Assembly (NCBI RefSeq): GCF_025245835.1
Contig: NZ_JAOBWS010000001.1
Span: forward strand, 496,001-560,000
From: Rheinheimera sp. 4Y26
GTDB taxonomy: Bacteria; Pseudomonadota; Gammaproteobacteria; Enterobacterales; Alteromonadaceae
DNA length: 64,000 nucleotides
Direction of reading: 5' to 3'
The notes below the pieces were generated by a model. That model was not told where the DNA came from, did no database searches, and worked only from the letters and a program-made list of their open reading frames with translations. Below, one piece after another: positions 26,321 through 39,178 of the stretch. Both the position numbers and the translations under genes were made by a program. Numbering within the stretch: the stretch's first letter is position 1; every line of letters starts with the position of its first letter.

Positions 26321-26470
26321 GTTTTTGGTGTTTTGGCACTCTGCAATTTGGGGCGTAGTCGCAGCGGGCAGTACGTCGGATGGCGTCTTGTATTGCACAT
26401 TCAAGACGGTCTGGTTGATGCCTGAAGTATTTTGTTTTCAGCTTGCAGCTGATGGTGCTATTGAAGCGGA

Positions 26471-26680
26471 GACTCGCCTCCGCGGGCGAGTCACTTTTTG
26501 TATCGACAAAAAGTGACGCAAAAAACGACCCCGAGATCGCTCGAAAGCCTGTTGTTTTGACTCGCTTTTGAGGCGCCGCCAAAACTCGACGGCTGCTAGC
26601 GTCAGCCGTCTCAAACAGTTGTCGGCTTAAAACCTCAAAACCGGCCAAAACAACTGCTCGCTAAACGGGGAGGGAAAGCA
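26471..26680. repeat. Palindrome-rich noncoding element, probably a dispersed repeat
   Basis: Contains GACTCGCC...GGCGAGTC (26471-26492) running directly into a perfect 12-bp stem with a 4-base loop, GTCACTTTTTGT-ATCG-ACAAAAAGTGAC (26490-26517), then a GC-mixed stretch to about 26680. The intergenic space from 26231 to 26806 has no credible gene. The compact, overlapping hairpins at the edge of an accessory region suggest a dispersed repeat; other copies cannot be checked here. Confidence 0.5.
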
Positions 26681-26806
26681 CTGGCTGGGAGATGAGTATT
26701 GTTCTAACTAGCTAGCTGCACTTTACGGCTCGTTTTGTAATTTATTTGTTGCAAATTAACTGTGCGGGTTTATCCACGCTTTCACACTCACAAAAAAACG
26801 CTGCAG

Positions 26807-26921
26807 TTATAACCACTTGTCGTCAATCATATTTCTGTGTAGTTTTGAAGCATATTGGAACGAAATAAGGGATAAACCACGATTTAAAGCGTGGTTTATC
26901 CCGTTGATTAAGTTGTTATAA
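26807..26921. other. Candidate attC-like recombination site (first of the array)
   Basis: TTATAACCACTT at 26807 is nearly complementary to AAGTTGTTATAA ending at 26921, the expected pairing of the R''/L'' and L'/R' arms of an attC site, with about 115 bases overall. R' (GTTATAA) departs from the GTTRRRY consensus. It immediately precedes the first cassette-like gene. Confidence 0.4.
26869..26902. repeat. Perfect 13-bp inverted repeat
   Basis: GGGATAAACCACG-ATTTAAAG-CGTGGTTTATCCC. The symmetry is exact. It lies inside the candidate attC site, where a folded inner stem would be expected, but it could be a separate operator or terminator-like stem. Confidence 0.75.
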
Positions 26922-26933
26922 GCCAAGGAAGAC

Positions 26934-27230
26934 ATGAGCCATTGTCGCCACTGTGAAGAAGTCAACCAAAGCTTTCGCATCGAAAATCCAGGGGATTTAT
27001 CGAAAGCAATAAGGGTTGTTTCTGACAACCTCGAAGACGGAACAATTATTCAAGATGTTCCTGAGATGGGTGGTTTTACTTCAGTTCAATTTCGAGATTT
27101 AGCTAAGGGCGAACTTTGGGATGATATTGTTGAGTACAACTTCATATGCCCAGAGTGCAAGCAGAAATATTGTCTTCGAGCAGAAACCTATCATGGTAGT
27201 GGTGGAAGCTGGTCTCCAAGGTCGAGCTAA
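26934..27230 (+). CDS. Cassette-type gene 1: small zinc-ribbon-like hypothetical protein
   Basis: 98 residues, no signal peptide. Two CxxC pairs, CRHC near the N terminus and CPEC near residue 78, could hold one zinc ion. Strong AAGGAAG ribosome site 13 bases after the preceding GTTATAA. No homologue recognised. The stop codon lies 4 bases before the next attC-like site, as in integron cassettes. Its composition is more AT-rich than the flanking genes. Confidence 0.7.
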   Translation: MSHCRHCEEVNQSFRIENPGDLSKAIRVVSDNLEDGTIIQDVPEMGGFTSVQFRDLAKGELWDDIVEYNFICPECKQKYCLRAETYHGSGGSWSPRSS

Positions 27231-27234
27231 TGGC

Positions 27235-27334
27235 TTATAACAAGTTGCTCAAGTACACTCCGGCCGCAAAAAAGCGCGGCCTCCGCGGGACAACCTACAC
27301 TACGTTTCGGTTGCCCCTTAGCAAAGCGTTAGGT
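27235..27334. other. attC-like site 1
   Basis: Starts TTATAACAAGTTGCTCAAG and ends AGCAAAGCGTTAGGT; the final GTTAGGT fits the R' core GTTRRRY in all but the third R/Y position. A central GGCCGC...GCGGCC stem occupies the middle. Length about 100 bases and start sequence resemble the VCR-type sites of Vibrio/Alteromonadales integrons. The next gene starts 9 bases later. Confidence 0.75.
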
Positions 27335-27342
27335 GATCGCAG

Positions 27343-27741
27343 ATGTTTTCTCCGTATTTTCTAACTGATGAAAATTTGGGTTTGTACCCTGAAGTCGATG
27401 TACGAACAGATGCAAGTGGTGTTGTTATAAAGCTAGCATTCCACTCGCAGGTAATAGAAGTGCTCTTCCGCCATGTGATTGCATTCTATTGTGTTGAAGA
27501 AAGTAATTACGAGTTGTCGCCGCTACCGGGTATGTCTAGTGAAGTTGACTTTGTATCGCTGGGAAAGGGGGCAAAAGAATCTCCAATTTGGAAGTCTTCA
27601 GCCAATTACAGGCGCAGTTTTTATGCTCATCTTGATTCATATCTTGCAGATGCATCATTAGAATCATATTTAATTTTTGGTGCCGATTACGTGGTTTTGG
27701 TTGAGTCAATCGGTTTGGTAGATGTTAAGGTGGCAACTTAA
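27343..27741 (+). CDS. Cassette-type gene 2: hypothetical protein
   Basis: 132 residues, soluble, no signal peptide, no recognised domain. The first residues (MFSPYFLTDENLGLYPEVDV) start 9 bases after the GTTAGGT core, typical of cassette genes that carry almost no leader. Weak ribosome site. The stop codon is 3 bases before the next R'' core. Confidence 0.65.
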   Translation: MFSPYFLTDENLGLYPEVDVRTDASGVVIKLAFHSQVIEVLFRHVIAFYCVEESNYELSPLPGMSSEVDFVSLGKGAKESPIWKSSANYRRSFYAHLDSYLADASLESYLIFGADYVVLVESIGLVDVKVAT

Positions 27742-27743
27742 GC

Positions 27744-27819
27744 ACCTAACTATCCGCGTCATTCGGGGCCTGCGGCCCCTACGACGCTCACAAGTTCGCG
27801 CGCATGCGGGGCGTTAGCC
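27744..27819. other. attC-like site 2
   Basis: Begins with ACCTAAC, a perfect RYYYAAC core, and ends GGCGTTAGCC. In between is GGGGCC-TGC-GGCCCC, a perfect 6-bp stem. Total 76 bases. This is the clearest attC in the array. Confidence 0.8.
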
Positions 27820-27838
27820 AGCAAGAACAAGGAACGTC

Positions 27839-28165
27839 GTGCAATATTTTAATAGCCCCAGATACTTACCGTTTTTGCTGTTGATGAGTCTCAGTATGTG
27901 GTGCTATTTGGCTTTAATTGGTGCTTTGGGTGACTCACGAGCAACTGATCATAGCCTTACATCAGACGAAATGTATTGGTGGGAAATAGTATGGCTTTAC
28001 ATCACTGTGGGGAGCTTATTTTATATTGTGGTTTGCTCAGTCGTTCATTGCTTCAAGAATTTAAGCATGTTTGTTGCTCTAATAATTCTATTCGTCTGGC
28101 CTACAGCTTACCTATATGCGCTTTATCATCTGTACAAGATTTCAATAGGGTCTAAATATGGCTAA
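27839..28165 (+). CDS. Cassette-type gene 3: small multi-pass membrane protein
   Basis: 108 residues with three hydrophobic segments (FLLLMSLSMWCYLALIGAL; IVWLYITVGSLFYIVVCSVV; MFVALIILFVWPTAYLYAL). GTG start with AAGGA about 6 bases upstream. Family not recognised. The stop codon TAA is embedded in the GGCTAAC core of the next attC-like site. Confidence 0.7.
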   Translation: MQYFNSPRYLPFLLLMSLSMWCYLALIGALGDSRATDHSLTSDEMYWWEIVWLYITVGSLFYIVVCSVVHCFKNLSMFVALIILFVWPTAYLYALYHLYKISIGSKYG

Positions 28166-28238
28166 CAAACGCCAGCACAACGCGTCTGTGGCCGCTTTAC
28201 TCGCAACAAGTTGCTCGCCCGTGTGGCGGGCGTTATGT
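28160..28238. other. attC-like site 3
   Basis: Begins GGCTAACAAACGCC and ends GGCGGGCGTTATGT; GGCTAAC and GTTATGT are the two outer cores, and the adjacent AACGCC/GGCGGGCGTT arms are complementary. 79 bases. Confidence 0.75.
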
Positions 28239-28251
28239 ATAGGAGCATTAA

Positions 28252-28710
28252 TTGAAAAATCTAATGGAACTTTATAAAGGATTTTTGTGGGGGGTAGGTT
28301 TTTCTCTTGCGGCTGGGCTTATATTTTCAGTGCTAGTATCCAGGTTTGCTGCATCTATAGAATATGGTTACAAAAATCGCTTGCAGGAATTATCTTCAAA
28401 ACAATTGACGTTGCTCGCAGATTCTTTAGGTTTGGAAATAGTCAAAACCTCAATTGAATCTAAAAAAATTATTTTTGCTACAAAGCATATAAATTTGAAT
28501 GATTCTTCTTTTATCCATACTACGTACAACATTTCATTGAGCCTTTTTAACAAATCCGGAGAGTTTATTTCAAAGTGTGAGTCTGAGTTCCCTGATGAAA
28601 AATCAACTGAGAAAGACATTTATACAGTGATTGAATGCCCAATAATATTTGGGGAGGCTAATGAATTTGATCATGCAAAAATTGCGATCACACGACAACA
28701 AAGGACATAA
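28252..28710 (+). CDS. Cassette-type gene 4: single-pass membrane-anchored hypothetical protein
   Basis: 152 residues with one N-terminal transmembrane segment (GFLWGVGFSLAAGLIFSVLV) and a soluble, Lys/Ser-rich outer domain of unknown family, containing two Cys (ISKCESEF, VIECPIIF). The TTG start is supported by AGGAG exactly 6 bases upstream. Markedly AT-rich. ACATAAC overlaps its stop codon, the position of another R'' core, but no complete attC follows, so the array may be truncated here. Confidence 0.7.
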   Translation: MKNLMELYKGFLWGVGFSLAAGLIFSVLVSRFAASIEYGYKNRLQELSSKQLTLLADSLGLEIVKTSIESKKIIFATKHINLNDSSFIHTTYNISLSLFNKSGEFISKCESEFPDEKSTEKDIYTVIECPIIFGEANEFDHAKIAITRQQRT

Positions 28711-28726
28711 CAAATAAAGCTTAATA

Positions 28727-28893
28727 GGGGGCAGGTTTTGTGTTTTACCCTCATGCTAATTAGTTTATTTTTGCAGTCAGGTGCGCTGAAGTTTAGATTC
28801 TGAGGCTATGAGAGCTAAACAAAACGCAAGATCTGCCCCTGATCACTGCAGAGGCTATTAGAGCTAGGCAAAACACAAGACCTGACACTGATC
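28727..28893. repeat. REP-like element: inverted arms plus 43-bp imperfect direct repeat
   Basis: A left arm at 28727-28746 (GGGGGCAGGTTTTGTGTTTT) is inverted relative to two right arms at 28821-28839 and 28870-28889. The right arms lie inside two imperfect direct repeats of 43 bases (28802-28844 and 28851-28893) that both begin GAGGCTAT and end TGATC. Arms of this GGGGCAGGT...AAAAC kind are seen near REP-associated transposases in other gammaproteobacteria; no transposase is present here. Confidence 0.65.

Positions 28894-38810: not shown

Positions 38811-39178
<368 letters not shown>

Follow-up and report, generated by a model that had tools for sequence, protein, structure and literature searches.

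Clusters of attC sites lacking integron integrases (CALINs) rival complete integrons in number, 2961 against 2760 in one survey (PMC9024848), and off-target insertion, loss of the integrase gene (intI) and rearrangement have been put forward as their origins (PMC8618304); dispersed copies of the integron attachment site attI are not among the origins given in the available text of the latter paper. All papers are cited here from the parts of their texts that were available, and statements on them hold for those parts. Here, we describe an array of four gene cassettes in Rheinheimera sp. 4Y26 (RefSeq assembly GCF_025245835.1; 4.08 Mb in 33 contigs, labelled G000), lying in the 64,000-nt stretch that was analysed, the window, which spans positions 496001–560000 of contig C11. 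Like a CALIN, it consists of clustered attC sites with their cassettes and has no intI nearby; unlike a CALIN, it has its own attI, and the genome holds eight other attI-headed arrays together with an open intI. The array is probably a satellite integron, seated on a dispersed orphan copy of attI and loaded in trans by an integrase (IntI) encoded elsewhere.

Several described systems come close to this organisation. In Alteromonas (PMC4119200), attC cassettes occur at two further chromosomal regions without intI and their expression was reported; however, attI is not mentioned in the available text and new cassettes are said to enter these regions less often, whereas in the present case attI is recognised as the platform and followed across genera. 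The recurrent loci of intI-less cassettes away from intI in Xanthomonas (PMC12444791) and the scattered CALINs and single attC away from intI in Shewanella (PMC9229058) are also similar, but no dispersed attI is described in the available texts of either, with which our loci are compared by description only. On the one hand, IntI1 recombines at secondary attI-like sites away from its own attI, which are said to be frequent across genomes (PMC10127599); these are described as short degenerate cores, whereas the site described here is a multi-copy attI homologue of ~200 nt. On the other hand, the delta-attI-type cassettes of class 1 and 2 integrons (PMC12901181) carry a displaced attI that is still recombined by IntI1, but there mostly a 14–18-nt piece of attI replaces the cassette attC, whereas here an attI region of ~200 nt heads an array at another place in the chromosome. 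The program IntegronFinder recognises only the attI of class 1 (PMC9024848), so dispersed attI would have escaped notice. Searches of an open-access library, which lacks most subscription papers and all preprints, turned up no account of multi-copy or orphan attI at the head of chromosomal arrays.

The site at the head of the window array (attI-like site in Table 1) is 66% identical over 188 nt to the attI that lies between intI and the first cassette in the sister genome G016 (E 2e-14 when searched against a small set of retrieved loci), and it also matches the attI of G010 and G021 over ~89 nt in a search followed by a multiple alignment. This homology to intI-adjacent attI indicates that the array starts at an attI homologue without intI alongside, contrary to an earlier note on this DNA, which had reported no attI in the window. 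The site makes up the last ~190–200 nt of a dispersed element of ~490–500 nt, which ends at the crossover G/TT (the slash marks the point of crossover). Eleven copies of the element were found in three genomes, five of them in G000, four in G008 and two in G018. They are conserved, with small changes, up to TTGATTAAGTTG/TTA and diverge at the crossover base, behind which different cassettes follow; one copy (L046) has ATT instead of the GTT core (ATTA). The eleven aligned copies share their end base, which is that of the G/TTRRRY insertion point of an attI. Sites of attC were recognised with a covariance model, R1, built from seven attC of the intI-linked integron on contig C30 and thus independent of the window; they lie downstream of 10 of the 11 copies, the nearest at ~0.2–1.7 kb, and behind the eleventh the contig ends after 62 nt. 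The left part of the element is an intergenic repeat with abundant copies across the genus (~70–95% identity), whose bounds were taken from an alignment of copies and whose start recurs among them. It was not found at the orphan attI of G021 and G016; groups of orphan attI share upstream dispersed repeats of ~300 nt, represented in the window by this left repeat. A CTG-N10-CAG box, which we take to be LexA-like, is retained in 9 of 26 orphan copies and is therefore not a constant part.

The end of this element had been taken for the first of the attC sites between the genes in the earlier note (26807–26921). Its arms pair and it folds far better than shuffled sequences (z -5.9), but that reading was dropped: R1 gives no match there, the outer pairing fits this cassette only, the left arm is conserved regardless of which cassette follows, and TTATAAC, which had the look of an R'' box, belongs to the dispersed element. 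The remaining three attC sites stand. Covariance scoring, which the note had proposed, gave three R1 matches in the window, with the scores listed in Table 1, and nothing further up to E 10; the attC of cassette 1, with an L box TTGCT and one extrahelical base by eye, is the weakest, its E value rising from 0.0033 in the window search to 0.1 in the whole-genome search. The model is family-specific; of the 11 sites recognised by eye on C30 it recovers nine, seven of which formed its training set. A home-made arm-pairing scan for attC proved unspecific and was replaced by the covariance model, and the three true attC did not stand out when simply folded (z -0.28 to -1.63, both strands considered), so that folding alone does not identify such sites.

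A cassette has to open with an R' box and close with the complementary R'', and the two boxes agree in all four cassettes. Among the 1241 plus-strand GTT of the window, the four of the array included, matches of equal length lie 200–600 nt downstream in 1, 12, 12 and 50 cases for lengths of 11, 8, 8 and 7 nt, respectively. The agreement in all four indicates that all four open reading frames (ORFs) lie in cassettes. The fourth cassette has kept R'' and lost the remainder of its attC, since the R'' box alone is present and no R1 match lies behind it; the four-cassette array without intI claimed earlier is thus borne out by attC and boxes, with the reservation that its last cassette lacks a full attC. 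The genes were correctly described as small, AT-rich and all on the plus strand, with G+C of 0.43–0.34 against 0.50–0.52 in the flanks, and repeats do occur on both sides, a dispersed one on the left and inverted ones on the right. None of the array proteins has a Pfam or NCBIfam family above cut-off or a PADLOC match at E<=1, and their PHROGs matches are at E 0.02 or worse. By definition, the label CALIN given in the note fits, for three attC recognised by R1 (at least two are needed) cluster without a neighbouring intI, but the array begins at an attI copy. A complete integron, with intI adjoining attI, is not what we found, as no intI lies between the repeat and the attI.

Table 1. Features of the cassette array and its surroundings (positions in the window)
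Feature	Position	Strand	Remarks
Left part of dispersed element, ~264-nt intergenic repeat	26430–26693	+	Begins TTTTCAGCTTGCAGCTG, ends at about ACGGGGAGG
attI-like site (orphan attI)	26736–26918	+	Homology to intI-adjacent attI of sister genomes; crossover between G26915 and T26916
Hairpin within attI-like site	26869–26902		Inverted repeat with 17-nt arms; arms traceable by eye in other copies, with changes
Cassette array, four gene cassettes	26915–28711	+	No intI beside it
Cassette 1	26916–27328	+	R' GTTATAAGCCA at 26915, R'' at 27231–27241; agreement over 11 nt
Cassette 1 ORF, 98 aa	26934–27230	+	CxxC pairs; presumably zinc-ribbon-like, every family match being under cut-off
attC of cassette 1	27235–27334	+	R1 23.8 bits, E 3.3e-3
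Cassette 2	27329–27813	+	R'/R'' agreement over 8 nt
Cassette 2 ORF, 132 aa	27343–27741	+	No family in Pfam, NCBIfam, PADLOC or PHROGs
attC of cassette 2	27744–27819	+	R1 45.6 bits, E 6.5e-9
Cassette 3	27814–28232	+	R'/R'' agreement over 8 nt
Cassette 3 ORF, 108 aa	27839–28165	+	Hydrophobic
attC of cassette 3	28160–28238	+	R1 68.5 bits, E 6.9e-15
Cassette 4	28233–28711	+	R'/R'' agreement over 7 nt; attC truncated after R'' (28705–28711)
Cassette 4 ORF, 152 aa	28252–28710	+	TTG start; N-terminal hydrophobic stretch by eye
Inverted repeats just 3' of broken cassette 4 attC	28732–28890		CAGGTTTTGTGTTTTACC / GGCAAAACACAAGACCTG; inverted-repeat search; which we take to be like repetitive extragenic palindromes
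RNase P RNA, class A	38812–39176		Ordinary; sole match of an Rfam scan of the window at gathering scores

The statement that there is no IntI holds for the window, where tblastn of IntI gave chance-level matches only (E 8 or worse), but not for the genome. One integron integrase exceeds the cut-off (TIGR02249, 469.6 bits), an open frame of 324 aa at C30:211621–212565, linked to an array of ~11 cassettes as read by eye. Two further covariance models were used for attI, R2 built from orphan attI ends and R3 trained only on 10 intI-adjacent attI. Among the matches listed genome-wide (150 of 834 first-look candidates scored), there are 27 attC, and all 27 lie downstream of an attI copy, recognised by R2 or R3, on the same strand: 11 on C33, seven on C30, three in the window, two at C11:863–864k and one each at C11:237k, C27, C31 and C11:302k. 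A ninth platform, C11:812070, is followed by a weak attC (19.9 bits). These nine cassette-bearing copies are of two types. Type 1, the attI type of the genome's own intI, heads the arrays on C30, C33, C11:302k and C11:864k, the last three of which have no intI, and R3 gave four such matches in this genome, the main one included; type 2, the window type, heads those of the window, C31, C27, C11:236k and C11:812k. Given an intI elsewhere in the genome and eight other arrays headed by attI, of which one is intI-linked, the expressions 'without integrase' and 'no attI' misdescribe the organisation. As side observations, a pair of orthologous attI-like relics with changed core and no attC found behind occurs in G000 (C8, L087:4719–4829) and G008 (C34, L088:4505–4615), and a phage-type integrase of 411 aa lies at G000:C11:485051–485479, ~11 kb upstream of the window start.

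Dispersed attI copies are widespread in Rheinheimera. R2 matches 7 of the 22 genomes; it finds the attI of the intI-bearing integrons in G016, G010 and G021 (E 1e-9 to 3e-6 per genome) and further orphan copies, five in G021 and two in G016, with attC behind all seven. Of 15 type-2 sense matches outside the training set, nine have attC behind them and two are cut by contig ends. R3 gave 133 matches, some of them partial, in 20 of the 22 genomes; by coordinates, 13 adjoin an intI and one more a truncated intI, the other 119 presumably lying away from intI, and the single-contig genomes G002 and G019 have eight and 10 matches, respectively. Forty of the 47 R3 matches in G001, G002, G007, G017 and G019 were fetched as a sample, leaving aside two intI-linked matches, L173 and L182 (kept separate) and three weak matches in G017. 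In 11 of the 40 loci, 19 attC were found at E<=0.5 (14 of them <0.01), all downstream of the attI and on the same strand. An R'/R'' heptamer agreement at the orphan attI was seen at 13 of 34 sites against 5.2 ± 2.1 (maximum 13) for dealt-out heptamers, a weak control because many R' boxes are alike and because the core was picked by pattern and is mis-set at some sites (for example, L204); five of the 40 loci without a recognisable core and L206, where the contig ends, were left out of this test. Three of the 13 intI adjoining R3 matches carry one in-frame TGA, in about the same part of the gene (G009:C15:32767–33783, G005:C60:162014–163030 and G014:C41:44015–45031).

A similar arrangement was seen beyond this genus. 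The attI region of a Pseudoalteromonas integron gave 40 matches, some of them intI-linked, spread over 9 of 12 Pseudoalteromonas genomes; apart from the self-match, all of these matches end at query positions 220–233, around the core. In most of 20 loci fetched, the match reaches CACTATTAAATTG/TTA or a near variant, beyond which the sequences diverge. R1 matches were found in seven of these 20 loci, one of them intI-linked (L241); the matches number 11 at E<=1, five of them <0.01, and all lie downstream on the same strand. Extra partial attI copies were also listed in 15 Alteromonas genomes, where matches at query positions 209–301 were disregarded, for they lie past the end of attI and resemble attC repeats. 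The same sequence, GTTGAACTAAGCCGC..., comes after the core at several attI copies (L077:1390–2169 in G017, L206, L026 in G020 and L238 in Pseudoalteromonas G026), and an ORF for a tyrosine recombinase, 27–31% identical to IntI, stands right behind such sites in G017 and G026; it perhaps belongs to a mobile element inserting at attI.

The orphan arrays could instead be frozen remnants, that is, old complete integrons, copied or acquired, which lost intI by deletion and hold immobile cassettes that differ by history. Decay of this kind is illustrated in G007, where an intI of which only about the first 39 codons are left (L173:1858–2091, G007:C1) stands next to an attI and three cassettes, and it would also fit the many attI copies without detected cassettes, the lost attC of the window's last cassette and the position of the left repeat, which occurs alone and also adjoins the 3' end of an open intI in two integrons of two genomes (here C30:211302–211559). 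However, homology to the intI locus extends no further than the beginning of intI, at about -223 to -226 relative to the core, in 38 of the 39 loci that gave a match (45 were submitted), so that no intI remnants are left in them, G007:C1 being the exception; a recurrent left end of homology lies near -206, at the start of the LexA-like box of type-1 intI loci. The cassettes themselves also argue against immobility. The comparison with relatives that the earlier note had proposed showed that G008 (87%) and G018 (79%) share the attI copy and flank of the window's locus, and that nothing there matches the cassettes of the window over 60 nt or more. At the C27 locus, the flanks are 91% and 96% identical to those in G008, and at C11:236k the 3' flank is 84% and the 5' flank, which lies on another contig, 93% identical, and at both the arrays of G000 and G008 differ; over the three orthologous orphan loci, flanks of 84–96% identity thus enclose arrays without a match of at least 60 nt. 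A 108-aa ORF at the window's locus in G008 (L062:642–968) resembles the cassette 3 protein by eye only, and that locus closes with a short attC and then only ~40 nt to a LysE-type gene.

Moreover, some cassettes are common to orphan and intI-linked arrays, with identities of up to 96% between species. The intI-linked array of G000 has cassettes that recur at an orphan attI of Rheinheimera texasensis (G021; 92.5% over 637 nt) and at the window's locus in G008 (84–91%), and those of the C33 satellite recur in the intI-linked array of G008 (96% over 1013 nt). Cassette 2 of the window has a 95% copy at G017:C2:70223–70718, behind the attI copy G017:C2:71414 and without the window's flanks, and hence occurs in other surroundings as a mobile cassette does; cassettes 1, 3 and 4 have no copy elsewhere among the matches listed. 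The first cassette beside the truncated intI of G007:C1, with an acetyltransferase-like ORF, is 91% identical to a cassette at the C27 orphan attI of G000. Combined with the above boundaries, this sharing makes frozen remnants an unlikely account of the window array.

Off-target insertion at a chance attG-like genomic site, which would make the array an ordinary CALIN, is a published origin of CALINs (PMC8618304), and the genome does contain an open intI; it is nevertheless very improbable here, because the left boundary is an attI homologue of ~190 nt, rather than an arbitrary G/TT such as an attG would offer, and because all of the listed attC lie behind attI copies. That the conserved ~200 nt might be no recombination site at all but a dispersed promoter or repeat that happens to precede cassettes can hardly be maintained, for although the region is joined to dispersed repeats and many copies lack detectable attC, it is found by a model trained on intI-adjacent attI, and its conservation stops at G/TT, the sequence behind differing from copy to copy and opening with an R' box in the window.

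For a satellite integron loaded in trans, the simplest course would be the following. A diffusible IntI, encoded at C30:211621–212565, would insert circular cassettes at the G/TT of each attI copy that it recognises and would excise them at attC, and one integrase could thereby serve nine cassette-bearing platforms. That IntI acts in trans at orphan attI is inferred, and the attI copies themselves may have spread as a unit of ~500 nt composed of repeat and attI, perhaps by recombination between repeats.

Several observations weigh against this reading. No recombination event was observed. The window-type attI resembles the sites of R. texasensis and G016 more than it does the attI beside the resident intI, which makes recognition of the window copy by the resident IntI uncertain and requires either cross-recognition or a second integrase since lost. 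Not every copy carries cassettes: two further diverged copies in this genome (C8:13218 and C11:242112) have no attC behind them, four of the 15 untrained type-2 matches (two of them in G000) lack attC, and 29 of the 40 sampled type-1 copies have no attC match, two of the other 11 having weak ones only. R1 being family-specific, its insensitivity accounts for part of these attC-less copies, yet solo relics clearly exist; in some of the attC-less loci the contig ends soon after (L206 and L223), and others have a changed or unrecognisable core. In G019 and G001, attI copies and attC are present although no IntI exceeds the cut-off, and a scan of the window's attI-like site gave no consensus promoter. 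Finally, differential loss from larger old arrays could also yield differing cassettes at orthologous loci, and the G008 array at the window's locus is split over two contigs and hence not seen in full. In contrast to the window array, the three type-1 satellites in G000 are free of the recognition problem.

If attI copies act as platforms, many positions on a chromosome would be open to the loading, storage and expression of cassettes. We see about an even chance that Alteromonadales integrons are, more generally, distributed systems, in which a single IntI supplies numerous scattered attI platforms and attI, joined to a repeat, multiplies as a genomic element. If so, many CALINs would be attI-headed satellites, missed by standard software because it does not search for attI beyond class 1. 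The seating of the window array at one of at least nine scattered attI copies hints that a single enzyme may be loading genes in many parts of a genome.

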